DNA of 64,000 nucleotides from Pedobacter sp. Leaf41 (GTDB taxonomy: Bacteria; Bacteroidota; Bacteroidia; Sphingobacteriales; Sphingobacteriaceae). The number at the start of each line of letters is the position of its first letter. Positions within the stretch are counted from its first letter, which is position 1. The stretch is from the NCBI RefSeq assembly GCF_001422545.1, contig NZ_LMLE01000008.1:113946-177945 (forward strand), read 5' to 3'. The notes under the pieces were generated by a model that saw only the letters and a program-made list of their open reading frames with translations, did not search any database and was not told the DNA's origin. The translations under genes were made by a program, and so were the position numbers. Below, in pieces: positions 7,152-26,150 of this stretch.

Positions 7152-7904
7152 ATGATTAGAACGCTTATAATTGAAGACGAACCTGCCATCCGCAAGGAAA
7201 TTGAATGGCTTTTGCAACAAGAAACACAGTTTAATTTAATTGGTTATGCAACAAGCGTAGCTGAAAGTTTAGTGCTCATTAAAGCAACAAATCCCGAATT
7301 AATTTTAATGGATATCCAGCTTACAGATGGCACAGCTTTCGATATCTTAGACCAGTTGAATGAAATACCTTTTCGCATTATATTCATCACCGCATATAAT
7401 CACTTTGCTGTTAAGGCGATAAAATTTGGCGCCCTGGATTATCTTCTAAAGCCCTTGGATGATGCAGAATTTAAAGCTGCGTTAGCTAAAATTGCTACGA
7501 ATGATGAAACCAATATTACACAGCAAAAGCAACAGATTTCTATTTTAAAATCACAATCCGGCTATGGAGAAAGTAATTTAGACAGTAGAATTGTATTACA
7601 CACCTTAGAATTTTTGCAGGTTTTGCAACTTCGTGAAATTATCTATTGCCAGAGTGAAGGGGGTTACACCAACTTTTTCCTAACCGAAGGCCGAAGGATT
7701 ATGATCTCTAAACCACTTAAATTTTATGACGAGCTTTTGCCCGAGAAGTGGTTTCTACGTCCCCATCAATCTTATTTAGTAAATGTTTTATACGTTGATA
7801 AATTTCTAAAATCCGGTACAATTGTATTGAAAGATAAAACCGAAATCCCCGTTTCAGGGCGTAGAAAAGATTACATTTTACAACACATTAACCACATCGA
7901 ATAA
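7152..7904 (+). CDS. LytTR-family response regulator
   Basis: 250 residues. The receiver domain (about 1-120) has the acidic pocket E8-D9, phospho-acceptor D54 (LILMDIQL), a Thr in IIFITAYN and the conserved Lys in YLLKPLDD. The LytTR DNA-binding domain (about 145-250) includes IIYCQSEGGYTNFFL and FLRPHQSYLVNV. Such regulators normally sit beside a LytS-type kinase, but none is adjacent; the only one in the window is at 22.1 kb and has no regulator next to it. Paired direct repeats with LytTR-like spacing lie upstream of several nearby genes, so a local regulon is plausible (inference). Confidence 0.95.
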   Translation: MIRTLIIEDEPAIRKEIEWLLQQETQFNLIGYATSVAESLVLIKATNPELILMDIQLTDGTAFDILDQLNEIPFRIIFITAYNHFAVKAIKFGALDYLLKPLDDAEFKAALAKIATNDETNITQQKQQISILKSQSGYGESNLDSRIVLHTLEFLQVLQLREIIYCQSEGGYTNFFLTEGRRIMISKPLKFYDELLPEKWFLRPHQSYLVNVLYVDKFLKSGTIVLKDKTEIPVSGRRKDYILQHINHIE

Positions 7905-7928
7905 AGAACTGCAATAAGTCTCTCAATC

Positions 7929-9062
7929 ATGAAACATAAAGTATTAAAAATCTTCAAATGGATATTCATTATTTTAGTTTCATTGATTTTGATACTATCA
8001 GCTGTTACTTATTTATACATGAAAAAGCCACTTTTTGGTAAGGCCGCCAAAGGCGTAAGGCTTGAACGAATGAAAAAATCGCCGCATTTTAAAGATGGCG
8101 TGTTCCATAACCTCAATCGTACACCTGAACTTACAGAAGGTTATAGCACCATAGGCATTATTTATGATAAACTTTTTGGAGATCACCCGCGATTAACTCC
8201 CGTAGATAGTATTCCATCGACGAAGGTAGATTTGCTGCATTTACCCATTGATTCGAACATTTTAGTTTGGTTTGGTCATTCCTCTTATTTTATTCAACTG
8301 GATGGTAAGCGCATATTAGTTGATCCTGTTTTTAGTGGAAATGCTTCCCCAATTCCAGGTACAGTTGTAGCATTTAAAGGCACCGATCGTTACAAAGTAG
8401 AAGATTTGCCAAACATCGATTATTTAATCATCTCACATGATCATTACGACCATACAGATTATGAAACGCTAATCAAGCTCAAATCGAAAATAAAAAAGGT
8501 GTTCTGCGGTTTGGGAGTAGGTGCCGATTTTGAAGACTGGGGATATAATGTTGAAGACATCTACGAGAAAGATTGGGATGAAACCATTGATTTGGGGGAT
8601 GGTTTTTTTATACACACGACACCTACAAGGCACTTTTCGGGCAGGGGTTTTACAAGAAATAATACGTTATGGATGTCGTATGTTTTTCAAAGCCCGACTA
8701 TGAAGATTTATATAGGTGGGGATAGCGGCTACGACACCCACTTTGCCAACATCGGCAAAAAGTTCGGCCCAATAGATTTAGCAATTTTAGAAGATGGCCA
8801 GTATGATGTTAAGTGGAAATACATTCACTTGCAGCCTACAGAGGTATTAAAAGCAGCGCAAGATTTAAATGCCAAACGTCTTTTCCCTGTGCATTCATCG
8901 AAATTTGTACTCGCAAATCATCCCTGGGATGAACCGTTAGTAAAAATTACAGAACTAAATAAAGTCACCAAAACCCCATTGGTAACGCCGATGATTGGCG
9001 AGTTTGTTTACCTTAAAAAACCCAACCAAATTTTTAAGCCTTGGTGGATTGGCATAAAGTAG
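7929..9062 (+). CDS. membrane-anchored MBL-fold hydrolase (UlaG/NAPE-PLD-like)
   Basis: 377 residues. A hydrophobic N-terminal segment (about 8-31) probably anchors the protein. The metallo-beta-lactamase domain has the metal motif SHDHYDHTDY (about 168-177), an earlier WFGHSSYFIQLDGKRILVDP strand-turn, a GGDSGYD motif carrying another ligand, and a late PVHSSKF His. This is the layout of NAPE-PLD/UlaG-like hydrolases, which act on phosphodiester or lactone substrates; the substrate is unknown. It begins 24 bp after the response regulator, so co-transcription is likely. Confidence 0.9.
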   Translation: MKHKVLKIFKWIFIILVSLILILSAVTYLYMKKPLFGKAAKGVRLERMKKSPHFKDGVFHNLNRTPELTEGYSTIGIIYDKLFGDHPRLTPVDSIPSTKVDLLHLPIDSNILVWFGHSSYFIQLDGKRILVDPVFSGNASPIPGTVVAFKGTDRYKVEDLPNIDYLIISHDHYDHTDYETLIKLKSKIKKVFCGLGVGADFEDWGYNVEDIYEKDWDETIDLGDGFFIHTTPTRHFSGRGFTRNNTLWMSYVFQSPTMKIYIGGDSGYDTHFANIGKKFGPIDLAILEDGQYDVKWKYIHLQPTEVLKAAQDLNAKRLFPVHSSKFVLANHPWDEPLVKITELNKVTKTPLVTPMIGEFVYLKKPNQIFKPWWIGIK

Positions 9063-9088
9063 CAATTAAGGTCGTGGCATCATTAGAA

Positions 9089-9119
9089 CGAATAATAATG
9101 CAACCGCTACAATACCATT
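9089..9119 (+). promoter_or_regulatory. possible degenerate 21-bp-spaced repeat pair
   Basis: A perfect CGAATAATAA at 9089 is followed at exactly +21 by CAATACCATT, which matches poorly. The first half fits the sites at 11749, 16858 and 24116. It lies 100-130 bp upstream of the TPR gene. Treated as a weak member of the set. Confidence 0.3.
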
Positions 9120-9218
9120 TTTTCGGTGGGCAATTAATAAAGTTTTAAAACTGTTTTCTGGTTCTTGAGTATATTAAAGAACATTAAAAATCTTAATTAG
9201 TTGGTATTGCTTTATTAT

Positions 9219-11018
9219 ATGAGATTGAAGTTAATTATTCCATTAATACTAATAAGTCTGTTTGTTGCAAATTTCACGGTTGCACAATCAAAAACTTATT
9301 TTGAAAATAAGGCAGATTCGCTAACTAAAATTGGTCAGGAAGAAAAGGTGATTCCTTACTTGGAGAAGGAATTAAAACTCGCACCCAAAAGTGAGCCGCT
9401 TTTGCGATTATTAGGATTTTACCATCTTCGAAACAATAATTTAGTGGTTGGTGAAAAGTATTATCGAAATGCATTATTAATTAATCCTAAATGCGCCAGA
9501 TGTTATTTAAACATTGGCCGTATACAAGCCATAAAAAATGATGGAGCGGAAGCTTTGTCATCAATAGACAAAGCTATTTCGCTCGACTCAAAAGATGCAT
9601 TACTATTTTTGACACGAGCAAACACTAAGGCTCAATTTAACGATAAATTTGGTGCCCTTGCAGATTATAACAAGGCAATTGAACTAGCGCCCGATAATGC
9701 TGAATACTACACCGCCCGTGGGGCCTACAATGCTGGCAATGGTTATCATGCTTTAGCCCTTACCGATCTTAATAAAGCAATTGTTCTGTCACCTGAAGGC
9801 TACGACGCCTATTTTTACCGTGGAGGTGTTTATTACAATCAAAACCAAGTGGAGAATGCTTTGAGCGACATCAATAAAGCCATTGTTTTAAACGACAAGC
9901 AAGCACATTTCTACAATGGAAGAGCATCAATTTATGCAAACATAGGGCAGTTCGACAAAGCACTAGATGATTACACCAAATCCATAAAATTAGATCCCTT
10001 AACCTACACTGGATATTTAAATAGGGCGAAAATTTATTATGAATTAGAAGATTTAGATGCTGCCTGTACAGATTATTTAGCGGCTAAGGCAATAGTAATC
10101 AGTAAAAAAAATTACGATCCTGAATTATTAAAAACGATTTCCGAATCTTCCGCCGATTTCTGCGATGAAACCAAGCCAAGCTATTATTATCAAAGGGGCA
10201 TCGCTCATTATAACCTAAAACAGTATGATAAAGCTTTAGCCCAATACGCTAAGGGATTGGAAAAATTCCCTAAAAATGCCATGATGTTATCCTTTAAAGG
10301 CAATGCTTATCTGGCGCTGTCCGACTATAAAAATGCTACTGCAAATTACAAAGCATCATTAGAGAACAAGGAAAATCTTCTTCATGAAATCGAAATAAAC
10401 CCTCGTTTTGCTACGGCCACAAATGCTGACATCTATCGCTATTACAATTCGTCTTTAGCATCTATTTATTCCGGTTTATCTGATTGCTATTTAAATGCCG
10501 GAGCCGTAGAAGAAGCACTCAACGCGATAAACACCGCATTATCTTTAGCGGCAGATGTTAAGGGTTTTGAGAAAGAAACTTATTTCAACCGCCGTGGAAA
10601 TATCTACTTAGCTACTGAAAAATATAAGCTGGCATGGAGTGATTTTAATAAAAGTATTGAGTTAAAAAATGATTATGCACTTGCTTACGTCAATCGGGCT
10701 ATAGCTCGCGTAAGCCTTACTGATAATGTAAAAAAATCTACTCATCGTGTAGCGGCAAAAATAGCCAATCAACCGGCAAGTTTTGGTTGGATAGTAAACG
10801 ATAAATCATCCATTAAGAAATCGCAAGATGCATTACTTCTTGCTTTAGCAGATTGTAACAAGGCTATCGAGCTGGATAAAGGTTTAGGTTTTGCCTACTA
10901 CGTTAGAGGATCTATTAAAGAGATTTTGGGACATAAAGATTTTTGTGTTGATATACTTACCGCCGCAAAAATGGGCCTTGAAATTGATGAACACATGTTG
11001 AAGATTTGCAATCAATAA
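9219..11018 (+). CDS. exported tetratricopeptide-repeat protein
   Basis: 599 residues from the ATG at 9219. An in-frame TTG at 9201 would add six residues before the signal peptide MRLKLIIPLILISLFVANFTVAQ, so the ATG is preferred. Many TPR units follow through most of the length (for example A.ADYNKAIELAPDNAEYYTARG and ALSDINKAIVLNDKQAHFYNG), probably forming two solenoids joined near residue 310. TPR proteins scaffold protein-protein contacts, and no enzymatic domain is visible. It is followed after 10 bp by the gene at 11029, so the two are likely co-transcribed. Confidence 0.9.
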   Translation: MRLKLIIPLILISLFVANFTVAQSKTYFENKADSLTKIGQEEKVIPYLEKELKLAPKSEPLLRLLGFYHLRNNNLVVGEKYYRNALLINPKCARCYLNIGRIQAIKNDGAEALSSIDKAISLDSKDALLFLTRANTKAQFNDKFGALADYNKAIELAPDNAEYYTARGAYNAGNGYHALALTDLNKAIVLSPEGYDAYFYRGGVYYNQNQVENALSDINKAIVLNDKQAHFYNGRASIYANIGQFDKALDDYTKSIKLDPLTYTGYLNRAKIYYELEDLDAACTDYLAAKAIVISKKNYDPELLKTISESSADFCDETKPSYYYQRGIAHYNLKQYDKALAQYAKGLEKFPKNAMMLSFKGNAYLALSDYKNATANYKASLENKENLLHEIEINPRFATATNADIYRYYNSSLASIYSGLSDCYLNAGAVEEALNAINTALSLAADVKGFEKETYFNRRGNIYLATEKYKLAWSDFNKSIELKNDYALAYVNRAIARVSLTDNVKKSTHRVAAKIANQPASFGWIVNDKSSIKKSQDALLLALADCNKAIELDKGLGFAYYVRGSIKEILGHKDFCVDILTAAKMGLEIDEHMLKICNQ

Positions 11019-11028
11019 CTAATTAAAT

Positions 11029-11691
11029 ATGAGGTATTTATTTTTGTTTTTCGTTTTACTATCATTAGAATCTACAGCACAAGTTTTGCCAAACTTCGTG
11101 GTACCAGCCGGACGAACAAAAGTTTTTGAAACTAAGGGCGACTTAGACAAAGATGGTATTGATGAGGTGGTATTGGCTTTCAATACCACTAAAAAAATAG
11201 ACCGAACAGGTTATACCAGAGAATTATTTATTTGTAAAGTAATTGATGGCACTTTAAAACTTTGGAAGAAAAACACATCTGTTTTATGGAACAGTGAGGA
11301 TTGTGGTTTTTGTACCGATAACGGGATTGACTTATCCATTAAAATAAAGAATAATACCCTCATTATTGAGCAAACGTTTTGGCACAATACAAGGCATACC
11401 AGCAAGCACAAAAACATTTATCGTTACCAGAATAATGATTGGTTTTTAATTGGGTCAACATATAACGACGATTATAATTGCGGTTTTCATCATACTTACG
11501 ATATCAATTTTTCGACAAAGAAGGTACATGTTAGTTATGATAACGAAGATTGCGAAGATTCTGTTCAATTATACCCTGCAACAGAAAAATTATTTAAATA
11601 TCCTTTTAAATCCGTCCCGAAAATGGATGGATTTACACCTGGAAGAACTGAAATCAAAATCCCTAACTCTAAGCAATTCTTCTATTATTAA
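11029..11691 (+). CDS. exported protein with a DxDxDG calcium-loop-like motif
   Basis: 220 residues, family not recognised. The N-terminus (MRYLFLFFVLLSLESTAQ) is a signal peptide. Near residue 37 the segment GDLDKDGIDEVVLAF matches the Ca-binding loop of FG-GAP/EF-hand-like secreted repeats. Four Cys in the mature part (EDCGFCTD, YNCGF, NEDCED) could form disulfides. It begins 10 bp after the TPR gene. Confidence 0.75.
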   Translation: MRYLFLFFVLLSLESTAQVLPNFVVPAGRTKVFETKGDLDKDGIDEVVLAFNTTKKIDRTGYTRELFICKVIDGTLKLWKKNTSVLWNSEDCGFCTDNGIDLSIKIKNNTLIIEQTFWHNTRHTSKHKNIYRYQNNDWFLIGSTYNDDYNCGFHHTYDINFSTKKVHVSYDNEDCEDSVQLYPATEKLFKYPFKSVPKMDGFTPGRTEIKIPNSKQFFYY

Positions 11692-11727
11692 CTCAATCTG
11701 GCAAGTCAGATAATTGTTTATCTGCAA

Positions 11728-11758
11728 CAAATAATGGATGAGCATTAACGAATAATAA
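11728..11758 (+). promoter_or_regulatory. 21-bp-spaced direct repeat pair (candidate LytTR site)
   Basis: CAAATAATGG at 11728 and CGAATAATAA at 11749 start exactly 21 bp apart, the spacing bound by LytTR-domain regulators. It lies in the gap before the gene at 12015. The second decamer and its flank TTAACGAATAATAAAC are shared with the site at 16858. Confidence 0.5.
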
Positions 11759-11899
11759 ACGGGTCTAATTTGATAACACAGTTTGCTTAGTTTAGCATTG
11801 TTAAACAAAAACATCCTTAATCTCTGAGGAATAAATGTTGAATTTATAGTTTTTGGTTCTGTTAACAGCTGTTTGGTTTTAGGAATGTAACGTCTCTCA

Positions 11900-11973
11900 T
11901 TTGATGGTACAGGCGGCGTAAAATTTCAGTATCTATATCCAGTATGTACTGTGTTTTACGCCTCCTCATCAAA
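11900..11973 (+). other. layered 74-bp stem-loop upstream of the 12015 gene
   Basis: TTTGATG (11900-11906) pairs with CATCAAA (11967-11973). GGCGTAAAA pairs with TTTTACGCC inside it, and CAGTA with TACTG inside that. The 323-bp gap 11692-12014 contains only this structure and the repeat pair at 11728. It could be a leader RNA structure, an attenuator or a palindromic repeat; there is no T-run for a terminator. Confidence 0.45.
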
Positions 11974-12014
11974 CTCTTTAATTTCCTTTATTTAATCATA
12001 CTAATACTCAAAGA

Positions 12015-12641
12015 ATGAAAAAGATACTCATTTTAGTTTTTTGTCTGGCGAGTGGAACAATCGCATTTTCGCAATCAAGTTATTCGGAAATTCAAAAGGA
12101 TGTTAAAGCAGCGGTTTTGAGTTATTCGGCACAAAATGCTAACTATCCAGTTCTAAAAAAATTAGTTACTGCTTTCGAAAGTGCGAAAAAATTAAACCCC
12201 GACTATCTCAAAAAAGATAATCTGGGAATTGCGATATTTCTATCAAACCAAAACCCTGAATTGGATATTTTCCCGGCTCGCTACACCTTCGAAAATGATA
12301 AGATAAATTTATCCGCTTTGCGAGATAAAAACACTAAAAAACCGAGTGATGATATGCGGGAGTACGTTAAAACGTATATCGAAGATTTTATTCAGTTAGG
12401 TAACACCAAAATATTTAAAAAGATGATTTATAATGCGCCAGAAACTGATGGTACTTATACAGCTAATAAAACGGAGCAAATTGTGAAAGAGGCCTATGCA
12501 ACTACCTTTGTACGTGGCAACGATACCTGGATGTATGGGATGAGTACAGGTAACCAGGGAATTATTTTGTATGCTTTCAAAATGACCATTTCTGGTGAAA
12601 ACTTAATGGATAAAAAGGTAGAGAACAAGCAGGAAAAATAA
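12015..12641 (+). CDS. exported protein of unknown function
   Basis: 208 residues with a signal peptide (MKKILILVFCLASGTIAFSQ). The mature protein is mixed alpha/beta with no motif I recognise and ends in a lysine/glutamate-rich tail (DKKVENKQEK). It stands alone, 50 bp before a PQQ-propeller gene, behind a structured leader and a candidate LytTR site. Confidence 0.7.
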   Translation: MKKILILVFCLASGTIAFSQSSYSEIQKDVKAAVLSYSAQNANYPVLKKLVTAFESAKKLNPDYLKKDNLGIAIFLSNQNPELDIFPARYTFENDKINLSALRDKNTKKPSDDMREYVKTYIEDFIQLGNTKIFKKMIYNAPETDGTYTANKTEQIVKEAYATTFVRGNDTWMYGMSTGNQGIILYAFKMTISGENLMDKKVENKQEK

Positions 12642-12691
12642 CTTCTTCAATGTATTTAGTTAAATTTCGTTTAAAATATCCTTTCTAAAAT

Positions 12692-13921
12692 ATGAGATTA
12701 ACACTTCAATTGTCCATCATTTTATGTTGCATAATAAAAGTAGCAGTCGCACAGCCTCCTACCATATCAGTATCAAAAAACAAAGACAAAAGTTTCTCTA
12801 ACAATAATATCCTTACCATGGATGATATGGTCTTCGACCAATTGATTTCATCAATTAAAGCTACAGCCTTAGATACAAACAGCATTCTGATATACAACAC
12901 AGATGGCATTCTAAAATCGATGAACTTGAAAACCAAAAAAATAAACTGGGAAGTAAAAGCATCGGATGCTGACCGGCACATTAGCGGAAATAATAAATTT
13001 TATATAGAAAATGGAACGGTATATATTCCCTTTATCAATGGCGAAATCTTTGCTTTAAACAATCAAAACGGTAAAATTTATTGGAAATCGAGGTTGGGAA
13101 TTATAAAAGACGAAATAATACTTAAAGGGCAATCGGCACAAGTGGTTAATGGCGCAATTTCATTGAGTGCTCAAAGCAGGAATCAAAATATTTATTCAAT
13201 AGACGCCAAAAACGGCAAACTGATTTGGAACTATAAGTTGGATTATCCTTACAACCACCTTCCAACCCTTACTTTCGGAAATAAAGTTTTCGCACAGAAT
13301 GCTCCCTACCTTTTAAGTTTTGATGCTAAAACAGGCCAGGCACTTTACAAAAGAGGTTTCAAAAAGGCTATGTATGGAAAACCTGTTACCGATGGCAAAA
13401 ACGTTTTTATCCCTGATGAAAGTGAAACATTGTTTGCGCTAAATCCAGACAACCTATCGATTTTATGGGAGTTCAAGCTGGAAAAAGGACAATACAATAT
13501 CAAGGAAAAAATATTTACGAAAGACGGTAAAATTTACTTTGGCACAACCTCATCCACTGAAGCATCTGTGTACGCATTGAGCACAGCGAATGGTGAAAAA
13601 CTTTGGAAAACCAACTTCAATGCGTCAATCGCTTATTTGCTTGATAAATCCGATGCCATTTGGGGTTACACCGAAAAAGGATTACTTTTTGAATTAGATC
13701 TTAAAACTGGTGATAAAAGGAGTGAGGTACAATTGGCTAATCTTCCCCTTTCTAACCTCGAGTTTTTGAGCAAAAATGAAGTTTTATTTTATAGTAAAGC
13801 TGGGCTCGTTAAACTGAATTTAAAAACCAAAGAAGAATCCATTTTGCTTGCCCATCAAAAGCTCGATGATAATAATAAAAACGATGCATTTATCAAACTG
13901 CTGAAAAATTCGAAGAATTAA
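12692..13921 (+). CDS. exported PQQ-like beta-propeller protein
   Basis: 409 residues with an N-terminal signal peptide (MRLTLQLSIILCCIIKVAVA). Repeated PQQ/pyrrolo-quinoline-type blades follow: IYWKSRLG, AKNGKLIWNYKLD, NPDNLSILWEFKL, STANGEKLWKTNF and LKTGDKRSEV. Each has the A..G...W motif that closes a blade. These propellers occur in quinoprotein dehydrogenases and in BamB-like scaffolds. No dehydrogenase catalytic or cofactor residues were recognised, so a binding role is more likely. It converges on the broken dehydrogenase gene. Confidence 0.85.
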   Translation: MRLTLQLSIILCCIIKVAVAQPPTISVSKNKDKSFSNNNILTMDDMVFDQLISSIKATALDTNSILIYNTDGILKSMNLKTKKINWEVKASDADRHISGNNKFYIENGTVYIPFINGEIFALNNQNGKIYWKSRLGIIKDEIILKGQSAQVVNGAISLSAQSRNQNIYSIDAKNGKLIWNYKLDYPYNHLPTLTFGNKVFAQNAPYLLSFDAKTGQALYKRGFKKAMYGKPVTDGKNVFIPDESETLFALNPDNLSILWEFKLEKGQYNIKEKIFTKDGKIYFGTTSSTEASVYALSTANGEKLWKTNFNASIAYLLDKSDAIWGYTEKGLLFELDLKTGDKRSEVQLANLPLSNLEFLSKNEVLFYSKAGLVKLNLKTKEESILLAHQKLDDNNKNDAFIKLLKNSKN

Positions 13922-13954
13922 ATTAAAATTTCACTAATCTGATGCAACAAATTA

Positions 13955-14952
13955 TTATTTTATTTTAACGACAACTTTGCCTTTCGCCCTTCCACTATTA
14001 ACATAATCCATTGCCTGGTTCAGCTCCTCGAAAGGAAAAACTTTATCTAATACGGGAGTTATTATACCTTGATCAATTAATTTTCCTATTTCCGCTAACT
14101 GCTTGCCATTGGCTTTCATAAATAAAAACGAATAATCAACACCGAGCTTCTTGGCTTGATTAATGGTTTTCTACTCAAAAAGTATAGGGCTAATTTCATG
14201 AACCATGATAAGCTACTTTCCTTCGCAAAGGCTGGATGTGGAGGACCGGAAACAGAGATTACTTTACCTCCCCGACTAAGTCTTTTTAAGGATTTGCTGA
14301 GTGTTTTTTCATCCTGGCTGTTTAGTACCAAATCATACTGATTTAGGATGCTTTCAAAATCCTGAGTTTTGTAATCAATCACTAAATCAGCAACCAATTT
14401 CTTTACTAAATCTGCATTTTGCGCACTTGTAGTAGTAGCCACAGTGACCCCCAAATGCTTAGCGAATTGAATAGCAATTGTGCCTACACTGCCCGAACCT
14501 GCTTGAATAAACACGCATTGGCCTTTTTAAGTTTCGCCTTTTCAACAAAAGCTTGCCAAACTGTTAAGGCAACAAGCGGTATAGAGGCTGCTTCCTCCAT
14601 CGAAATGTTTTTGGGTTTCAGGGCTACATCTCTTTCATTCATTGCAATGTATTCTGCAAATGCTCCTATACTAAAATCAGCCGGACGAGCAAATACTTTA
14701 TCGCCTATTTTAAATCGCGTAACTGTCGATCCTATTTTTACCACCACCCCAGCTACATTATGTCCCAAAATTAATGGCAATTTGTAAGGCATTAACAACT
14801 TAAATTCTCCGTTTTTAATCTTGTTATCTAGCCGGTTAATACTAGTTGCATAGATCCACTAAAACTTCATCTGCTTTAGGCTCGGGAATTGATATTTCAA
14901 CAACCTTTAGCTTTTCTTTTTTACTATAACTTTTTATGGTGTATGCTTTCAT
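13955..14952 (-). pseudogene. zinc-independent alcohol dehydrogenase/quinone oxidoreductase (MDR), three frame breaks
   Basis: Translating in pieces gives a complete MDR-superfamily NAD(P)-dependent oxidoreductase: N-terminus MKAYTIKSYSKKEKLKVVEI, GroES-like part PLILGHNVAGVV, Rossmann motif AGSGSVGTIAIQFAKHLG, and C-terminus ending GRAKGKVVVKIK. The frame is lost at about 14850-14856, at about 14522 (AAAAAGGCC where AAAAAGGGCC restores KKGQ.VFIQAG) and at about 14155 (ATCAAGCC where one more A restores the frame). Two of the three are one-base losses in homopolymers. All three parts are otherwise well conserved, so decay is recent or the consensus is wrong. It runs in tandem behind the broken SDR gene. 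Confidence 0.85.
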
Positions 14953-14968
14953 TATTTTAGAGTGATTA

Positions 14969-15732: not shown

Positions 15733-15775
15733 TTTCTATGTTGAATTTCGTATTTTCGCTTTCAAAATGAAAGTG

Positions 15776-15806: not shown

Positions 15807-15821
15807 GAATAAATTTTATTT

Positions 15822-16244: not shown

Positions 16245-16317
16245 CAAAGATTCGTTCGGCTTTATCAAAAATAAAGTCCCTATTAAATAACCAAGTAAGA
16301 CCTATAAACAACCAGCT

Positions 16318-16737
16318 ATGGCACTTATTAACCCACACATTAATTTCAACGGCAATGCCGAAGAAGCTTTCAATTTTTACAAATCGGCATTCGGTGGAGC
16401 TTTTACATCGATAGTGCGCATGAAAGACATGGCAAGCGACGAATTTCCTGTTGAAGAAAACGATGCAGAAAAAATTATGTACATCGCTTTGCCAATTGGC
16501 CCAAATACGCTGATGGGTAATGATGTGCCCACTTATCTTGGACAGGTTAATGAAAATGAAAATCGATCAAAAATTTCTATTAGCGCAGAAAGCAAAGAAG
16601 AAGCTAATAAAATATTCAACATTTTATCAGCTGGTGGAACTGTAGAATTTCCGCTGGGCGATAGTCCTTGGGGATCATACTTTGGAATGTTTAGAGATAA
16701 ATTCGGTATCGAATGGATGATTGAATATGCTGCATAA
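16318..16737 (+). CDS. VOC-family protein, PhnB-like
   Basis: 139 residues of the vicinal-oxygen-chelate fold: MALINPHINFNGNAEEAFNFYKSAFGG at the start, and SPWGSYFGMFRDKFGIEWMI at the end are typical of the PhnB/YjdN branch (3-demethylubiquinone-9 methyltransferase-like). Members fold as dimers of paired beta-alpha-beta units; most have no proven reaction. It follows HxlR by 73 bp and is closed by a strong terminator. Confidence 0.9.
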   Translation: MALINPHINFNGNAEEAFNFYKSAFGGAFTSIVRMKDMASDEFPVEENDAEKIMYIALPIGPNTLMGNDVPTYLGQVNENENRSKISISAESKEEANKIFNILSAGGTVEFPLGDSPWGSYFGMFRDKFGIEWMIEYAA

Positions 16738-16783
16738 TTGCTTAATCAAACTTATATAAATCGCGTTTGATACGCAAAATTCC

Positions 16784-16815
16784 AATCCTCGCCCACGTAG
16801 GCGAGGATTTTTTTT
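16784..16815 (+). terminator. rho-independent terminator after the VOC gene
   Basis: AATCCTCGCC and GGCGAGGATT form a perfect 10-bp GC-rich stem with a 6-nt loop, followed by eight T. Confidence 0.95.
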
Positions 16816-16836
16816 CAAATAATAATTCATTCTCTA

Positions 16837-16867
16837 CAAATAAGAATTAAATTTTAACGAATAATAA
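16837..16867 (+). promoter_or_regulatory. 21-bp-spaced direct repeat pair (candidate LytTR site)
   Basis: CAAATAAGAA at 16837 and CGAATAATAA at 16858 begin exactly 21 bp apart. The second repeat shares TTAACGAATAATAAAC with the site at 11749. A TAGCTTTA at 16882, 14 bp after the second repeat, is one base from the -7 consensus, so the repeat would abut the -33 region of a promoter for the 16922 gene. Confidence 0.55.
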
Positions 16868-16921
16868 ACCAGCCCATCTTTTAGCTTTAGCAGTGTTATT
16901 TTTAAATAAAAATCGATAAAA

Positions 16922-17413
16922 ATGATTGTTACAGCTCAAACCTACACGATAATACTCGTTGCAATTCTTGTCTTGATTTCCTTAAAACCACTTTATACCA
17001 AGTTGGTAAAGAAGCAAGGCAAAAAAGACGATTGGATGTTTTTATTGATTATACTCCTATTGCCTATTAATTGGTATACGCCAACTATTTTGACGATTAC
17101 AGATTGTAATCAATTTACCAAAGAAGTGGTATTGTTTCCTACAGAAAAAGAAGGGATATCAATATCGTACGGTAGAAAAAATTATATATTCAACCATTCT
17201 AAACAAACCCTTGGCTTCGAATATTTATATTACGGCAGCGATCAAAAAGAAGATGACCACCGTGATTTAGTTATTTTTCCTAACAAAACGGCTACGGTAA
17301 ACGAGGTTAAAATCGACTATGTTTTTGAAGCACCTGCTAAAAGTGTTTCCACAAAATCAAGCGGGGCTACAAAAACCATGTTGTATTGCCAACAAGACAG
17401 TACAGAAGATTGA
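16922..17413 (+). CDS. small inner-membrane protein, unknown function
   Basis: 163 residues, not recognised. Two hydrophobic segments (about 8-25 and 38-59) form a hairpin joined by a basic loop (KLVKKQGKKDD). The rest is a soluble beta-rich domain ending in a Ser/Thr/Lys-rich stretch. Directly downstream of a candidate LytTR site. The next gene begins 40 bp after the stop, so both may be one transcript. Confidence 0.65.
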   Translation: MIVTAQTYTIILVAILVLISLKPLYTKLVKKQGKKDDWMFLLIILLLPINWYTPTILTITDCNQFTKEVVLFPTEKEGISISYGRKNYIFNHSKQTLGFEYLYYGSDQKEDDHRDLVIFPNKTATVNEVKIDYVFEAPAKSVSTKSSGATKTMLYCQQDSTED

Positions 17414-17453
17414 ACACAATAGTATTAAACCGAAATCTACCCTTAAAAATCTC

Positions 17454-18299
17454 ATGAAGAACTTAACTTTTATCTATTTAATTGCGTTGGTAACATTTTT
17501 TTCTTGCAATACCAAAGATAAGCAACCCGAAATACTCGAGGCAAAGGGAGGCTTTGATCTTGAAAAGGTCAATTTTCAAGAGGGTGTTGCTAAGCTTTAC
17601 GGAAACAATGTAATTCTTAGCGATGGTATGCGCTACGACAGTGCCGAAAACGGGAAACTTACCGATGAATTGTTAAAATATAAGATTAGTAATTCGCTGC
17701 TGGATGCAATGAAAATCACGGTTCCTCAAAAAGATTTTGGCTATTTATATCAAAGCCATACTTCAGATAGTTTGGCCAAATTTAATGGCTATTATTTTAG
17801 CAACCTGAATATCCTCACTGACAAAAATAAGAAACCCGTAGCTTATCATGCCGAGGGCGAAATTTACGACCTTAAAGCCAAAAAAGCTTTTCTTGCTAAA
17901 ATGAAAGAAAAGTATGGGGCTCCAAAATATTCCATTTTCATTTCTCATCATTTTAGTCAATCTTCTTACGAATGGGCTTTAAAAGATCGAACCATTCAGT
18001 TGGAAACTTCTAAGGGTTTTAGCGCCAACTTTAGCACTGATAGTGATGCAAAATCAGGAGAATACCTTCGCTTTGATTTACTCATTATTGCCAATGATAA
18101 AAAAGAGCAAGTTCATAATGCACACATATATGAATTTGGCGATAAAGTATTGTACAATGGCAAATATCTTACACTGGAAGAGTTGCAGCTTGATAAAAAA
18201 TCGACATTTAAAGATGTGTTTCTATTAAACTCTACAGATAAAAAATACTTTAACGATCCAACTGGTCAATATGATATTAGCCGGGAAGAGGCTGAATAA
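17454..18299 (+). CDS. lipoprotein of unknown function
   Basis: 281 residues from the ATG at 17454. A longer in-frame start overlapping the previous gene would hide the signal peptide, so it is rejected. MKNLTFIYLIALVTFFSCN is a lipoprotein signal with the lipid-bearing Cys at 18. No domain was recognised in the mature part. It sits in a run of four co-oriented genes of unknown function. Confidence 0.7.
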   Translation: MKNLTFIYLIALVTFFSCNTKDKQPEILEAKGGFDLEKVNFQEGVAKLYGNNVILSDGMRYDSAENGKLTDELLKYKISNSLLDAMKITVPQKDFGYLYQSHTSDSLAKFNGYYFSNLNILTDKNKKPVAYHAEGEIYDLKAKKAFLAKMKEKYGAPKYSIFISHHFSQSSYEWALKDRTIQLETSKGFSANFSTDSDAKSGEYLRFDLLIIANDKKEQVHNAHIYEFGDKVLYNGKYLTLEELQLDKKSTFKDVFLLNSTDKKYFNDPTGQYDISREEAE

Positions 18300-18332
18300 A
18301 TTAGGCACACTATCTACTAAAATTATTTTACC

Positions 18333-19139
18333 ATGGAAAATTCTAATTTTAATATCGAGCCGATCCAACAAGCAGAGATTATCCCTCAACCAAAGCGTAA
18401 AAATAAAGCTAAAACCATTATTTGGATGATCGTGGCCATAATTGTTGTGGCGGGCGCAACCGGTTTTGCCTATTTATATGGTGGCTATAGAATGCGACAA
18501 GATATTTATAATGTCGATGGTGATGATACCACTTATCCGGCAGACAGCGTTTTTGTTGATGGTTGGGCATCACCTGAAGATTTCGCCACATGGAGAAATG
18601 CTACATTTACCATCCCGCAGTACGATGATGTACCAGTTGCTTTTCAACGGGGAATTGTTAAAATCTTTATGGATAATAACTATTTCAGCAAAGAGAACAA
18701 CGAATTATACTTTTTCACCAAAATTAAAGATCGTGCTTATCGTGTTATTGCCTATGGCGATTTTACCGGTCAAGGGGAAAAAGAAATGGCGTTTTTGCTC
18801 GAAAAATCAGATTTTGCCAGTAGCGCAATTTACATCATCCCCCAAAAAGGAAATATATTGTATTGGAAAGCACTAAGTGGAGAATTACCCACCATAAAAA
18901 GCTTTAAAAAGGGTGCGCTAATTTTCATGGATAAAATGGAACTTACACCCGCTCCAAGTGATGGAATAATTAAACAAACAAAAAGCGCTAAATATGTGCT
19001 CATCTACAATCGGCAAACTAAAACCTTTGATGAATACTATCAATATACCAATGAAGATATAAAAAGTGCAAATGAAGAAACAGACGAGGGAGAATCAGAA
19101 GGAGCAGAGCCAGATACAACAGCTATATTGGAGCAATAA
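18333..19139 (+). CDS. single-pass membrane protein, unknown function
   Basis: 268 residues. A polar N-terminus rich in Gln/Pro is followed by a basic patch (PKRKNKAKT) and one transmembrane helix (about 27-50), so the main domain is probably periplasmic. The tail after about 245 is strongly acidic (EETDEGESEGAEPD). No family was recognised. It begins 33 bp after the lipoprotein gene. Confidence 0.7.
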   Translation: MENSNFNIEPIQQAEIIPQPKRKNKAKTIIWMIVAIIVVAGATGFAYLYGGYRMRQDIYNVDGDDTTYPADSVFVDGWASPEDFATWRNATFTIPQYDDVPVAFQRGIVKIFMDNNYFSKENNELYFFTKIKDRAYRVIAYGDFTGQGEKEMAFLLEKSDFASSAIYIIPQKGNILYWKALSGELPTIKSFKKGALIFMDKMELTPAPSDGIIKQTKSAKYVLIYNRQTKTFDEYYQYTNEDIKSANEETDEGESEGAEPDTTAILEQ

Positions 19140-19146
19140 AAAGGTG

Positions 19147-19398
19147 TTATAAATTTCTCGACTTAAGCTCTTCCTGCATCTGTTTGATGTTGCTAAGATT
19201 TGAAATAACTATAGGCAATAAACTGATTGGTATTACAGTTAAGGGGGTAAATCCTTTTTTGAAATTCAAATACATGCTCAGCGCAAACAGAAGCACTAAC
19301 ATTACAACAAGAGTAGAGGTGGATGCTTTAGCTACCTTTTCGCTTTTTTGTAACTGCTTGTTGCTCATTTCCGCAAACTTATTTTCACTCATTTTCAA
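19147..19398 (-). CDS. small two-helix membrane protein
   Basis: 83 residues (79 if the second ATG, MSENKF, is used). A polar N-terminus is followed by two hydrophobic segments (about 28-45 and 52-67) and a polar C-terminus. It converges on the 18333 gene with a 7-bp gap, and it is the only minus-strand gene between 15.8 and 31.6 kb. Function unknown. Confidence 0.6.
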   Translation of the reverse strand: MKMSENKFAEMSNKQLQKSEKVAKASTSTLVVMLVLLFALSMYLNFKKGFTPLTVIPISLLPIVISNLSNIKQMQEELKSRNL

Positions 19399-19493
19399 GG
19401 GAGATAATTAATATATCAATAGGAATTGATTTTCTCTGCTCAAAAATAATAAAGACCAGCGTTTTTGCAATCCTCATTTCCTATTTAAAAAAG

Positions 19494-19524
19494 CGAATTA
19501 TAATTAAAGTTCAGCGAATTATAA
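19494..19524 (+). promoter_or_regulatory. perfect 21-bp-spaced direct repeat pair (candidate LytTR site)
   Basis: AGCGAATTATAA occurs twice; the decamers CGAATTATAA begin at 19494 and 19515, exactly 21 bp apart. They lie in the divergent gap between the small genes at 19147 and 19654, so either could be the target. Confidence 0.55.
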
Positions 19525-19653
19525 ATCATTAACTGCGTTTATCAATTGTGCATTAATCAATTCTATAATAATGATTAATATAGCATTACAAAAGGCCCTC
19601 AAATAATTTTGAATGGGTCTTTCAGTTTAAGTTAAACCTAAATATCATCAAAA

Positions 19654-19857
19654 ATGACAGTTACTTATATGATGTTGGCCTTTACTACAATTTACCTGGC
19701 CGGAACTTATTTTTATTACAGACACACTGTAAAAAAAGGCACAGAATTTAGATACAAACCTATTTTCTTACTTATCATTGGTTTGTTGTTTTTATTATCG
19801 CTTTACGGGAGCGTTACCAACCAGCCATTCAATACCATAGTGCCTTTTATTAGGTAG
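19654..19857 (+). CDS. small two-helix membrane protein
   Basis: 67 residues made mostly of two hydrophobic segments (about 3-21 and 36-54) linked by a basic loop (RHTVKKGTEFRYK). No family was recognised. It lies 130 bp downstream of the perfect repeat pair at 19494. The gene is short, but the start is a clear ATG and the layout is membrane-protein-like. Confidence 0.55.
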   Translation: MTVTYMMLAFTTIYLAGTYFYYRHTVKKGTEFRYKPIFLLIIGLLFLLSLYGSVTNQPFNTIVPFIR

Positions 19858-19912
19858 GCTTTAGCAATTTGCTTTATTAAATAATTCACTGTTTTAGTGT
19901 AACTGTTTCAAT

Positions 19913-20908
19913 TTGAAAAGAAAAAAAGCCTCATTTCTTGCCGTTGTATTAGTAGTTGGCTGGTACGTTTTCATTTGGTGCAAATTCCATTTCTTTAACA
20001 AGGCGATTAGCCAAGAAGAAATAAATAAAGAATTCGCAGTTTTAAAAATGCAAGCACCGCTATATGATTCGGTTTACATACGCGGATACAGCATAAAATA
20101 TATTAGCAATAAAAAGAATTTCAGCGAAAAAGGCGATCAGTTTGGCAAGAAGAAACCCTATTTAGTTTTGCTACATAACAGCGATAAAAATGCAGGTTAT
20201 TTTCTAGACTATTTTAAGAACAAGGCACTTAATACTAAGTTCCATATTATTGCCGTAGATAGAATTGGTTTTGGAAACACCAGTTTCAAGAAATCCGATC
20301 AAAAAAATTCCTTGTTTCAACAAGAAGAAAAGGAGTTCGGCAAAATGGCTGACTATGCATCAGGCACAGCCGTAAAAGAAATTTTAAATGCTGAAGGCCA
20401 ATACATGGAAGAAGTTAGAATAATTGCTGATGGCAGTGGAGGGATGGCCGGTTTGCAGGCATATTTATATGAGAGTCTTTCGTTTTCAAAAGTTTTTTTA
20501 TTCTATCCGGATTTAAGCAGCCGGTTTTTAGTGAGCAAAGTTTTTAGTAAAATAATGGTAAGCCCGATAGTGGCCTGGAGCTTTCCCAAAGCCTATACAA
20601 GCAAACACAATGATTTGCTACTTGCTGACCAAAACAAGAGAGATAACTTTGAAAAGCTTATCAAAAATGTTCAATTTTCTGAAAACCGAGAGGGTAAAGA
20701 AAACGGCTATATGTATTCGAAAGGGTTTAAATCAGTTTTTTTCTTAGGATTGAGCAAAAACGAACAGGAGCGAATTGCAAAAATTTCTGGGGAAAAGAAC
20801 TTCGTTTTTCAAACCAGCGATGCCAACATTTACTCTTCACCAGAAAACGTGCTTAAAACTATACTCAATAACGACATCTACACGCTGCCGTTTAACAGAA
20901 TAAAATGA
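19913..20908 (+). CDS. alpha/beta-hydrolase-like protein with altered active-site motifs
   Basis: 331 residues beginning at a TTG (no ATG precedes the signal-anchor segment SFLAVVLVVGWYVFIWC). The fold is suggested by LVLLHNSDKNAGYF at the oxyanion strand, the DRIGFG strand, and IIADGSGGMAGLQAYLY at the nucleophile elbow. The elbow reads D-G-S-G-G in place of G-x-S-x-G and the usual HG is HN, so activity is uncertain. Its stop overlaps the start of the next gene by 4 bp, indicating translational coupling. Confidence 0.7.
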   Translation: MKRKKASFLAVVLVVGWYVFIWCKFHFFNKAISQEEINKEFAVLKMQAPLYDSVYIRGYSIKYISNKKNFSEKGDQFGKKKPYLVLLHNSDKNAGYFLDYFKNKALNTKFHIIAVDRIGFGNTSFKKSDQKNSLFQQEEKEFGKMADYASGTAVKEILNAEGQYMEEVRIIADGSGGMAGLQAYLYESLSFSKVFLFYPDLSSRFLVSKVFSKIMVSPIVAWSFPKAYTSKHNDLLLADQNKRDNFEKLIKNVQFSENREGKENGYMYSKGFKSVFFLGLSKNEQERIAKISGEKNFVFQTSDANIYSSPENVLKTILNNDIYTLPFNRIK

Positions 20909-21843
20909 TGAAAATTTACACCCTTCTTATCCTGATGATGTTTAGTTTATCTTCTTGCAAATCTCAAATAAATGATCATGCCGAATTGCTTGAGAATTTG
21001 AAATACGATCCGAATAAAGAGATGTATCAAATAGCAGGAACGAACCTGTATCCTGTAGAGATTACCATCAACGACTATCCAGTAGGTAGAGGCCTCGCCT
21101 TTTTTGGCCATCAAATGTATTATGTTGCCGATATTGGCTTACAGAAGAAAGGCCGCCAAACAGCTAAAGTTACTTTGGATCTGAAGAATTTTAACCCTAC
21201 AGTAAGTGATCAGCCTATTCTTTTCGTGGCGATTTATTACAGTGGTGACATTTCAATGCCATCGATAAACGATGAAGAAGATGTACTGGTGCACTATGTA
21301 CTGACTGGAAAAGACGTAACTGCCCAGGATATTAAAAATGGTTACATCACCAAATCCTTTTCTTTTGAAGCAAAAGAAGTTCGTACTGACTTAGATAGCT
21401 GGAAAAATTCAAAAAAATTAACGGCCAATGATGTGCTTTTCAATCAGCTATATGAAGCATACGAAGAGCTGCAATCAGATTTAAATGCTTCGGACAAAGG
21501 CGATGCCATTGAAAAAATGAAAGTTGCTGAATACGAAACTGCTCAGCTGAGAGGCGCTAAAAAGGAGTGGATTTTAGAGGAGCGGGAAGCGTTATTTTCT
21601 AATACCTGGAAGTTGCTGCCAAAAGATAGTTGTAAACTAAACCTTTACGGTGATGGAAAAATTGCCACCTTAGTTAAAAAAGACGGTTCGATCATTTCAC
21701 CATCAGCAATTTCCTCAAATCCGAGATCTAAGCATGGCAAAACCTTCCAAATTTTGAATTTATATTTTCATATTCCAAACAATAAAACCGATTTAGAATT
21801 AACCCGATTCGATGCGTATGCGATCACTAATTTTGGGAAGTAA
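20905..21843 (+). CDS. lipoprotein of unknown function
   Basis: 312 residues. MMKIYTLLILMMFSLSSCKS is a lipoprotein signal with the Cys at 18. The N-terminal half is predicted beta-rich (VKVTLDLKNFNP..., ILFVAIYYSG) and a helical charged stretch lies near 190-235. No domain was recognised. Coupled by ATGA overlap to the hydrolase-like gene upstream. Two ATGs in tandem leave the exact start open by one codon. Confidence 0.7.
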   Translation: MMKIYTLLILMMFSLSSCKSQINDHAELLENLKYDPNKEMYQIAGTNLYPVEITINDYPVGRGLAFFGHQMYYVADIGLQKKGRQTAKVTLDLKNFNPTVSDQPILFVAIYYSGDISMPSINDEEDVLVHYVLTGKDVTAQDIKNGYITKSFSFEAKEVRTDLDSWKNSKKLTANDVLFNQLYEAYEELQSDLNASDKGDAIEKMKVAEYETAQLRGAKKEWILEEREALFSNTWKLLPKDSCKLNLYGDGKIATLVKKDGSIISPSAISSNPRSKHGKTFQILNLYFHIPNNKTDLELTRFDAYAITNFGK

Positions 21844-22110
21844 AGGAAAGGGTAACTATTAATTATTTGTGCTAGTGACAATGATTCCCTTCCAGGTTAA
21901 TCGCTGGGATTAAATAGAAATTGTTAAAGATAAGCAACCAAAGCTTGGCTAAAAATGCAGTCGATTGAGCCTGAAATGTCTACAATAAGAGTATAGATAC
22001 TAAGTCGAAAATTTAAATATTTCTCAAAACTTAAGCTTATTTCTGTAAAAAAATGTAACATTATATCTGTTTACTTGAAATCAAATGCTTACTGCTCTAC
22101 CCGTCATCAA

Positions 22111-24063
22111 ATGAAACAACCTTTTCTTTATTTTTGCCTGGCAATCTTGCTTATTCTTTCATGCAGGCAAAAACCAACTGTTGCTAAAAATGAGCAACTT
22201 TTAAAGTACAAGGAAGAGGTTTCATTACTCTTGGCAAAACAGCCAAATAAAGCAAATGCAGATTCTATTGTGCAGGCATGGAATCAGTACAACAGTAACC
22301 CAATTGTACTGGCCGACACCGATTTAAATACCAAAACCAAATACAACCTGGGTAAAATGTTTGCCCGAAAAAATCCTGATAGTTCTAAAATGTTTTTACA
22401 GCAAGGCCTTGATTTGGTTGAGCCAGGTAACAAGTTTTTAGAAATTAAGGCTAATCTCTATAACGGGATGGGAAATCTGGCCAATGCAGAACCGTCTGAA
22501 CACCAGGCCAATTATTATTACAACAAAGCGGCGATGATTGTACTTTCAGACACGACCTTAACCTTGAAACCGATGGCCAAGGCTATTATTTTACTGGCCG
22601 CAGCACAAAGCAACAAAAGTTTACAGCAATATAGTTTGGCATTAAAAATGAATTTGGCAGCATTAAAATTAATGCCACAACTGCCTCCAAATATTACCAA
22701 CCAACAGCGGGTTTTAACACAGTTAATTTCATTAATTTACACCGCAAACTTTCCCAGAAAAAATGTGGAGAACTACCTCGCAAAACTAGAAAAATTGCAA
22801 GCTACGTACCCTGATGATTTTAACCCGAGGTTTTTATATGATAGTAAATTGCTTTATTTCGATAAGGCCAGTAACGTCGATTCTGTTTTAAAATACTCTT
22901 TGCTAAATGCAGAAATTGATGAACAAATTTATGGCCAAAACCCAACTGAACCTACCGCGGCGGGCAACATTTACACTACCTATACCAATATTGTAACTAA
23001 TTATGTAAAGGCTAAAAATTACCCCGATGCAGCACGCTACCTGAAAAAAGCAAATGAAGTATTTAAGCAAAGTGGCAGGCTATTAGAGTACGAAGATTTA
23101 ATAAGAGGAGGCGAGGCAAGCTCAAGTTATTATGCCGCAATTGGTCAAAAAGATAAGGCGCTCCAAACCGCGACAGAAGTCATAGCGCTCCAGAAAGAGA
23201 ATTATGAGATAGAAAATACGCAGGCAGTGGCCGAGATGGGAGCACTTTATCAAATTCAAGCGAAGGATAATTCGATAGACCGACTGAACGAAGATATCAA
23301 AATAAATACCTTGAAACTAGAGCGAAATAAATTAACCTTGGTAATTACAGCCCTTATTATTTTGATTTTGCTCATTGTTATCTTCTTGTTCTATAGCATA
23401 TATAAACAACGAAAGCTAAAACAGGAGAAAGAAAATGTACAGTTGCAGCAACAATTACTGCGGACGCAAATGGAACCTCATTTTATTTTCAATACCTTAT
23501 CTGCATTGCAAAGTTTTATTCGATTGGATGAGAAGGACGAAGCAATTAAATACCTCAATCAATTTAGCAGGTTATTGAGAAGTAGCCTTGAGTTGAGTAG
23601 AGAAAAGTTGGTGCCATTAAGCCAGGAGATAGAAACGCTAGAAAATTATTTGAGTTTACAGCAAATGCGCTACAATAACATTTTCAATTTCGAGATTAAT
23701 ATCCCGGAAAATGAAGATTTGGAAATGATTATGCTTCCGCCGATGCTGATACAGCCTTTTGTAGAAAATTCGATTTTACATGGCATTAATTTGAACGATA
23801 TAAATGGCTTTGTAAATGTGAATTTCTCCATTTCTGACCAAAATTTAACCGTCACCATCACCGATAGCGGTAAAACTATTAGTGAAAACAAACCTCAGAA
23901 TCATCAATCGCTTTCAGGTATCATTAGCAAGGAAAGATTGCAATTTTTAGGCAGGGAACGCAATCAAAATGCCGGAATTACTCAAAACAAAACAACCACT
24001 GGCGGCACAGTTGTATACTTAAACATTCCGATTAGCCAAAATGAATCTATGGGCAAATATTAA
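22111..24063 (+). CDS. LytS-type sensor histidine kinase with periplasmic TPR-like sensor
   Basis: 650 residues from the ATG at 22111; an upstream in-frame TTG is rejected because MKQPFLYFCLAILLILSC forms a clean lipoprotein-like signal. The N-terminal ~400 residues are helical, TPR-like repeats. One transmembrane helix (about 408-430) leads to a coiled coil and the His_kinase domain with MEPHFIFNTLSALQSFI (phospho-His about 456), then an HATPase with N-box QPFVENSILHGI (about 551) and a G-box. No response regulator follows, unlike the usual arrangement; the orphan LytTR regulator at 7.15 kb is the obvious candidate partner. Confidence 0.93.
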   Translation: MKQPFLYFCLAILLILSCRQKPTVAKNEQLLKYKEEVSLLLAKQPNKANADSIVQAWNQYNSNPIVLADTDLNTKTKYNLGKMFARKNPDSSKMFLQQGLDLVEPGNKFLEIKANLYNGMGNLANAEPSEHQANYYYNKAAMIVLSDTTLTLKPMAKAIILLAAAQSNKSLQQYSLALKMNLAALKLMPQLPPNITNQQRVLTQLISLIYTANFPRKNVENYLAKLEKLQATYPDDFNPRFLYDSKLLYFDKASNVDSVLKYSLLNAEIDEQIYGQNPTEPTAAGNIYTTYTNIVTNYVKAKNYPDAARYLKKANEVFKQSGRLLEYEDLIRGGEASSSYYAAIGQKDKALQTATEVIALQKENYEIENTQAVAEMGALYQIQAKDNSIDRLNEDIKINTLKLERNKLTLVITALIILILLIVIFLFYSIYKQRKLKQEKENVQLQQQLLRTQMEPHFIFNTLSALQSFIRLDEKDEAIKYLNQFSRLLRSSLELSREKLVPLSQEIETLENYLSLQQMRYNNIFNFEINIPENEDLEMIMLPPMLIQPFVENSILHGINLNDINGFVNVNFSISDQNLTVTITDSGKTISENKPQNHQSLSGIISKERLQFLGRERNQNAGITQNKTTTGGTVVYLNIPISQNESMGKY

Positions 24064-24115
24064 TTCTGCAAACAGCAATAGCATACATATTTGTTAGATA
24101 ATTTCGTATTTACTG

Positions 24116-24146
24116 CGAATAATAATTCAAACCCTACGAATGATAA
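24116..24146 (+). promoter_or_regulatory. 21-bp-spaced direct repeat pair (candidate LytTR site)
   Basis: CGAATAATAA at 24116 and CGAATGATAA at 24137 begin exactly 21 bp apart and differ at one position. They lie 64-94 bp before the WG-repeat lipoprotein gene and just after the histidine kinase gene. Confidence 0.6.
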
Positions 24147-24209
24147 TCATCTGGATATTTAAAGTAATTCCTTTTTATATTTAAGTGGAATACCTTTTAT
24201 AACCCTTAG

Positions 24210-26147: not shown

Positions 26148-26150
26148 ATT

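Follow-up and report, generated by a model that had tools for sequence, protein, structure and literature searches.

The DNA analysed here is a 64,000-nucleotide stretch of Pedobacter sp. Leaf41 (contig NZ_LMLE01000008.1, forward-strand positions 113,946 to 177,945; hereafter the window), in which a gene for a LytTR response regulator, a gene for a sensor histidine kinase and four arrays of head-to-tail decamers of the CGAATWATAA type, repeated with a period of 21 bp, lie on one strand. An initial annotation had described the decamers as direct pairs and placed them under the control of the regulator at 7.15 kb together with the kinase at 22.1 kb. In what follows the genome of the window is G000 (4.78 Mb, with contigs labelled C1, C6 and C7), genomes of relatives carry G numbers and their loci L numbers, and G025, a near duplicate of G000, is excluded from the target, phasing and promoter-group counts. 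The regulator, the kinase and the arrays with their promoter boxes are arranged as follows.

7152..7904, + strand: LytTR response regulator (RR_A), receiver plus LytTR DNA-binding domain (Pfam PF00072, E=5e-18; PF04397, E=5e-16)
9089..9098, + strand: single decamer CGAATAATAA, a relic or half site, with no second copy at 9110 and no -7 box
11707..11758, + strand: three-copy array, starts 11707 (weak), 11728 and 11749; three copies also in G025
11788..11795, + strand: -7 promoter box TAGTTTAG, at most 1 mismatch from the -7 consensus, 30 nt after the 11707 array
16816..16867, + strand: three-copy array, starts 16816, 16837 and 16858
16897..16904, + strand: -7 promoter box TATTTTTA, 30 nt after the 16816 array
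19494..19524, + strand: two-copy array, CGAATTATAA twice; also in G025, and in variant form in G157 and G021
19554..19561, + strand: poor -7 candidate TAATCAAT at the expected place after the 19494 array
22075..24063, + strand: sensor histidine kinase (HK_B), ATG probably at 22111 (PF06580, E=4e-21)
24116..24146, + strand: two-copy array, beginning 53 bp past the kinase stop
24176..24183, + strand: -7 promoter box TATATTTA, 30 nt after the 24116 array

Decamer arrays and their promoter boxes

The pairs given in the initial annotation at 11728/11749, 16837/16858, 19494/19515 and 24116/24137 all exist with starts 21 bp apart, and the four arrays to which they belong are intergenic, each pointing toward the next gene on the + strand. 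The first two pairs were incompletely described, each start being the middle copy of a three-copy array, and a weak third copy (TAGATAATTT, at 24095) also lies upstream of the 24116 array. A weaker pair proposed at 9089/9110 did not hold up: the decamer at 9089 is perfect, the sequence at 9110 (CAATACCATT) does not match, and no -7 box accompanies them, which leaves a lone decamer. In G157 a weak array (13.1 bits) stands before what is apparently the same tetratricopeptide repeat (TPR) gene as the one that follows 9089.

With at most one mismatch allowed, the originally proposed pair pattern matches the window five times, against a mean of 0.03 (largest 1) in 100 dinucleotide shuffles; with up to three mismatches the figures are 19 and 9.65. 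The genome-wide scan that had been suggested was carried out with a sharpened pair pattern and returned, at up to one mismatch, eight matches against none for the reversed control. The occurrence of the arrays by chance is thus excluded, both in the window (5 against 0.03) and in the genome (8 against 0). Three of the eight matches fall in the window and three on C7 (203.6k, 211.2k and 219.9k), with single matches on C1 (1424k) and C6 (371k). Since the C6 match extends across a gene start and lacks a -7 box, it is probably a chance occurrence and was dropped as a member. Additional arrays were found at C7:131k, 198k and 208k and at C1:1415k and 1430k. Among the fetched loci ten G000 arrays are followed by a correctly placed -7 box; the window contributes three of these, C7 five and C1 two. 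The idea of a local regulon confined to 15 kb is therefore abandoned, as complete promoters of the same kind also occur on contigs C1 and C7.

Searching the genome for a single decamer combined with a -7 box gave 11 matches against 8 in the control, so one decamer is not enough. At C7:379567 (L358:1501) the gene of a membrane-anchored protein, a possible further member of the regulon, is preceded by a decamer whose upstream copy is poor and which is followed by a -7 box at +30.

To examine promoter anatomy, 33 pairs served to build a position weight matrix, with which the fetched loci were searched; the discovery of arrays made no use of the -7 box. Arrays scoring at least 18 bits come from 21 genomes, 20 of the genus of the window and G046 of the same class. 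The motif TAnnTTT, with at most one mismatch, begins 30 or 31 nt after the last decamer in 71 of these 78 arrays (70/77 with identical sequences counted once), as against 8/23 weaker arrays and 3/46 pseudo-sites in reversed sequence. The box is absent from seven arrays: G000 and G157 account for two each (in G000 these are the 19494 array and the C6 match), and G021, G077 and G141 for one each. A second count, made on 61 distinct arrays with a gene 10–140 bp away and with the longer motif TAnnTTTG (at most one mismatch), gathered 34 and 11 matches at positions 30 and 31, where 0.84 per position would be expected. The housekeeping sigma factor of Bacteroides is described as having TAnnTTTG for its -7 box, together with a second box near -33 (PMC7366714). 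No conserved TTTG appears at the -33 place in the sequence profile downstream of the arrays. For 85 arrays a co-directional start lies no more than 400 bp away, and 66 of these arrays sit 40–150 bp upstream of it.

These data make the arrays look like phased, activator-type promoter sites. A phosphorylated regulator would occupy two or three head-to-tail decamers, one per two helical turns and all on one face of the DNA. Because the -7 box lies about 30 nt past the array and no -33 box is recognisable, the gene-proximal decamer would end near -41, and we infer that the bound protein would substitute for the -33 contact and recruit RNA polymerase, i.e. activate transcription. That the arrays are instead mobile or recombination repeats, such as cassette boundaries, would suit their occurrence in islands of poorly conserved genes, yet it is exceedingly improbable given both the phasing of the -7 box and the position of most arrays shortly before a gene start.

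Co-occurrence of the arrays with the regulator

The product of the gene at 7.15 kb is a LytTR response regulator by domain content, with PF00072 and PF04397 both above cut-off. The operators of almost all LytTR regulators are described as repeats of 9–11 nt with spacers of 11–13 nt and without a common consensus (PMC4847170). The arrays, with 10-nt repeats, an 11-nt spacer and two to three copies, fit this rule, and in 71/78 cases they stand next to a promoter core.

G000 itself holds 18 LytTR matches, and the question of which protein reads the arrays was approached through their distribution. Over 145 genomes of the genus a strict form of the pattern finds 78 sites against 24 for the reversed control. 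Of these, 54 lie in the 18 genomes with an ortholog of the regulator at 59% identity or more, four lie in the six genomes with a regulator of about 50% identity, and 20 are spread over the remaining 121 genomes, a rate (0.165 per genome) equal to background (the reversed pattern gives 24 per 145). The association between sites and regulator has a Mann-Whitney p of 4e-11, a value that ignores the kinship of the genomes. In G086 and G163 all four strict sites are far from the regulator (0.9 Mb away in G086, on another contig in G163), and both genomes carry arrays beside the regulator too. Across Pedobacter-type genomes, sites of this LytTR architecture co-occur with orthologs of the 7.15-kb regulator; overall, the arrays are best explained, and we think very probably so, as predicted binding sites of this protein.

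We considered whether a different LytTR regulator binds the arrays while the 7.15-kb regulator merely hitchhikes, the candidates being a paralog at C1:747k (36% identical, of a sister clade) and a regulator at C7:186k. G005 has array promoters and a regulator of the C1:747k clade only, and the C7 regulator with its kinase sits 9–12 kb from the nearest C7 array. Against this, seven genomes whose best regulator match is 35–37% identical (G034, G004, G001, G009, G020, G027 and G011, the first two of which the tree puts in the C1:747k clade) have no strict site, and in G010, G163, G086, G095, G144, G096 and G111 the kinase gene downstream of RR_A has an array at its stop. The C7 regulator was rejected as the binder, as its orthologs in G011 and G030 are accompanied by no strict site in either genome. 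The C1:747k-type paralog was rejected as the sole binder; something like it is still needed for G005. As a whole this alternative appears unlikely.

Sequence alone cannot name a protein, and more than one type of factor could make use of an AT-rich repeat next to a -7 box, so that the decamers might also be half-sites of a non-LytTR factor or be read head-to-tail by an alternative sigma factor. The 21-bp period, with its 10-nt repeat and 11-nt spacer, is, however, the pattern described for LytTR proteins (PMC4847170, PMC11347149), the site counts follow the LytTR gene over the 145 genomes, many arrays lie directly against the kinase gene, and regulators of different lineage go with different site types. 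The -7 box, moreover, is the one reported for the housekeeping sigma factor (PMC7366714), which speaks against an alternative one. We regard such a factor as very unlikely.

Several observations weigh against assigning the arrays to the 7.15-kb regulator. The matrix was seeded from sites of these same genomes, the loci were chosen around sites and regulators, and the 19494 array is without a good -7 box. Seven of the 18 regulator genomes have no strict site (G070, G010, G111, G068 and G069) or one (G077 and G062); weaker arrays are nevertheless present in G010, G111 and G070. A looser full-promoter search, which at three mismatches is too noisy for site-by-site use, gives little or no excess over the control in 6/18 (G035, G010, G111, G141, G068 and G062) and an excess of at least seven in 13 of the 121 other genomes, all 121 together giving 686 matches against 462; either the pattern is noisy or similar sites are used by other regulators. 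G005 has four complete promoters and only the sister-clade regulator (about 40% identity), and G160 and G046 have array promoters with no close ortholog found; G160 (three strict sites) and G129 (two) are counter-examples in the strict count. G021 combines three sites and a kinase homolog of 74–75% identity with no close regulator, in a genome that is 78% complete. Near orthologs in Algoriphagus, Sphingobacterium, Flavobacterium and Chitinophaga no clear array was found (six pairs of at least 9 bits against three reversed, in 20 loci), and the claim for the motif is accordingly limited to Pedobacter-type genomes. Recognition residues compared by eye in a regulator alignment gave no firm conclusion.

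Two side observations concern these genomes. At C30:165-195 kb of G005 (L170, L171) the array promoters precede homologs of Pedobacter targets. In Algoriphagus and Sphingobacterium (L284, L285, L288) there is a response regulator–histidine kinase pair whose regulator, at 58–64% identity, is closer to that of the window than some Pedobacter regulators are, and which may have been acquired by horizontal transfer.

The kinase and its lineage

The kinase HK_B has an N-terminal hydrophobic signal or anchor, a TPR-like helical solenoid (residues ~36–355), a long helix with a transmembrane stretch and a His_kinase domain. Its structural model (mean pLDDT 81, pTM 0.55) runs in the same order from a helical solenoid through a long helix to the kinase core, and its best matches in the PDB are TPR proteins. 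The TPR-like sensor part is probably periplasmic, and it is here that the signal would enter, to be passed by phosphotransfer from kinase to regulator.

Kinase and regulator are 14.2 kb apart in the window and 11.8 kb apart in G157. Elsewhere they are neighbors: in 25 of 30 loci (L271–L300) a homologous kinase begins within about 55 bp of the regulator end, or its called open reading frame (ORF) overlaps the regulator; in L286, L288 and L292 the called ORF begins inside the regulator gene, probably through an over-extended start. The exceptions are L271–L274, where the kinase is outside the stretch examined, and L290, a short contig. In 12 of the 21 genomes for which the kinase was available, the window included, an array begins close to the kinase stop (-40 to +132 bp), and in G014 one begins 87 bp upstream of the regulator gene; in G035, G141, G070, G068, G069, G062, G117 and G080 neither arrangement was found. 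The 22.1-kb kinase is probably the working partner of the regulator. For the initial claim that the two proteins together control the set, the tracking of regulator orthologs by the motif supports the regulator's part; the kinase's part stands with the qualification that, as the trees suggest, it is not the ancestral partner.

The regulator and kinase trees conflict. The window regulator groups with those of G163, G086, G035 and G077 (forks 85–92). The window kinase groups instead with those of G105 and G117 (fork 100; 67% identity over 627 residues and 70% over 414, the G117 match spanning residues 241–654 only) and is set apart from the kinases of G163, G086 and G035 (41–42% identity). Both trees are quick ones with SH-aLRT support only, which, like the partial G117 match, lowers the weight of the comparison. 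The regulators of G105 and G117 adjoin their kinases and are about 50% identical to the window regulator. G000 has 18 LytTR and 10 His_kinase matches, and these include neither a regulator of the G105/G117 type (RR_B) nor a kinase of the G163 type (HK_A), the best other identities being 36% for regulators (one shorter match reaches 39% over 84 residues) and 36% for kinases. Neither expected partner is listed for G025, for which part of the candidates was scored. The new point that this comparison suggests is that the 22.1-kb kinase and the 7.15-kb regulator come from different lineages of one kinase-regulator system, the kinase probably grouping with a sister lineage rather than being the regulator's ancestral partner. 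Since the kinase groups in this way and the expected partner turned up for neither protein, the two now working together probably form a hybrid pair.

The two lineages also differ in their sites. In the A lineage (nine genomes) 17 of 27 promoters read AA at positions 6–7 of the last decamer, three read TG and two TA, and 17/27 promoters have three or more copies. In the B lineage (G105 and G117) these positions are TG in 8/8 promoters, none of which has three copies. The group with proposed hybrid pairs (G000, G157, G021, G060 and G077) is mixed; it has 35 promoters, with AA in 15, TG in seven and TA in five, and three or more copies in 12; its composition is provisional, as in the stretches examined the kinase was not found for G060 and G077, nor the regulator for G021. 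Outside these groups stand G014 (one promoter, TG) and G080 (one, CA), both B-type relatives, as well as G005, G046 and G160. With slightly better than even confidence, we propose that a copy A of the system (sites of the CGAATAATAA type, often in three copies) and a copy B (CGAATTGTAA, in two copies) met in an ancestor, that kinase A and regulator B were lost, and that regulator A under kinase B now runs a merged regulon with both promoter types. If true, this would be a natural case of partner swapping, in which two regulons have come together under a new sensor. The tree conflict in any case offers a natural experiment on the rewiring of signalling pairs and the later adaptation of binding sites.

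Predicted target genes and related systems

The genes that follow the decamers in the window are these.

9201..11018, + strand: exported TPR protein (Pfam TPR)
12015..12641, + strand: exported protein of unknown function, first gene after the 11707 array (no Pfam match)
12692..13921, + strand: exported PQQ/BamB-like beta-propeller protein (PF13360)
16922-17413, 17319-18299 and 18333-19139, + strand: three-gene operon; the products have no known function, and most carry membrane or export signals
19654..19857, + strand: small membrane-type protein of 67 aa, missed in the initial annotation
19913-20908 and 20905-21843, + strand: two further operon genes of unknown function
24210..29514, + strand: six-gene operon, mostly exported or membrane proteins (WG-repeat protein at 24210-26147, PA3715-family protein at 26151-26903)

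The first gene after the 19494 array is the 67-aa ORF and not the ORF at 19913. The family of this small ORF follows an array in four genomes, with homologs after arrays in G021, G157 and G163. The first gene of the 16922..19139 operon also follows an array in G025 and G157, and a protein 25% identical to the beta-propeller protein is encoded by the second gene behind a C7 array.

The proposal that the arrays precede mostly genes for exported or membrane proteins of unknown function is borne out over the wider set: by a crude rule, 62 of 91 first genes encode a hydrophobic N-terminus, against 612/1219 other ORFs of the same loci and 55/139 in array-less loci. When 101 first genes were clustered by single linkage, 19 groups had members in at least two genomes (two of them in G000 and G025 only), and many genes stayed singletons; the widest group spans eight genomes, and a zinc-ribbon group and a membrane protein of ~101 aa span six each. 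Pfam and NCBIfam matches are scattered among the 142 target-operon proteins (WG repeats 5, DUF2931 4, AhpC-TSA 4, DUF6694 4, MORN_2 3), and PDB sequence searches with three target-type proteins were uninformative. The regulon would extend over several genome islands, and most of its operons would encode exported, lipo- and membrane proteins, its content turning over between species. Matches to VanW, YkuD and SanA/DUF218 hint at a possible envelope role of the targets. The promoter rule of decamer, 21-bp period and -7 box at +30/31 is precise and testable, and with it many exported-protein operons that are now unannotated would be attributed to one regulator.

A reading of the targets as type VI secretion immunity islands was suggested by DUF2931, DUF6694, XAC2610-related, WG and MORN_2 proteins and by a G141 site before a VgrG operon. 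It was dropped, as that site has no -7 box and one other VgrG homolog occurs among 1597 ORFs, in which a simple repeat pattern also found no Rhs-like protein. Two first genes after arrays, at L011:15839-16201 and L011:6543-7184, encode proteins with differing N-terminal parts and a common C-terminal stretch of ~81 residues (32% identity).

Among the closest known systems is YpdA/YpdB of Escherichia coli, of the LytS/LytTR type, likewise a histidine kinase with a LytTR regulator. The YpdB site is a direct repeat of a 10-nt motif, GGCATTTCAT, with an 11-nt spacer in the oligonucleotide depicted, i.e. the same 21-bp period (PMC4847170). YpdB is described there with one target gene carrying two sites, whereas here there are many promoters, often with three copies and with a different decamer; the TPR-like sensor and the different lineages of regulator and kinase also set the present system apart. 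Three direct repeats two helical turns apart in one operator, as seen here, are described for RcoM/CoxC (PMC11347149), which are CO-sensing one-component proteins with another motif, CoxC being a repressor that acts over the -35 box.

AgrA and ComE of the Firmicutes also have a LytTR domain, and their sites upstream of the promoter are paired direct repeats separated by about two turns; they serve peptide quorum sensing, and their motif and targets are unrelated. In the open-access literature searched we found no description of a LytTR regulon in Pedobacter, and LytTR targets in Bacteroidota as a whole appear to be little described there.

In genomes of Roseivirga, Flammeovirgaceae and Flavobacteriaceae, a LytTR operon unrelated to this one has a 21-bp direct repeat of its own, roughly CAnTTCACTACA, before the first gene. 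In 47 such loci, several of them from close relatives, 27 intergenic 10-mer repeats occur at spacing 21, against 2–10 at other spacings from 14 to 31, and about 11 of the 27 have the CAnTTCACTACA-type motif. Repeats of this type lie at L305:5984, L308:6053, L311:6196, L317:6386, L322:6017, L333:6417, L334:6016, L336:6016 and L343:6324.

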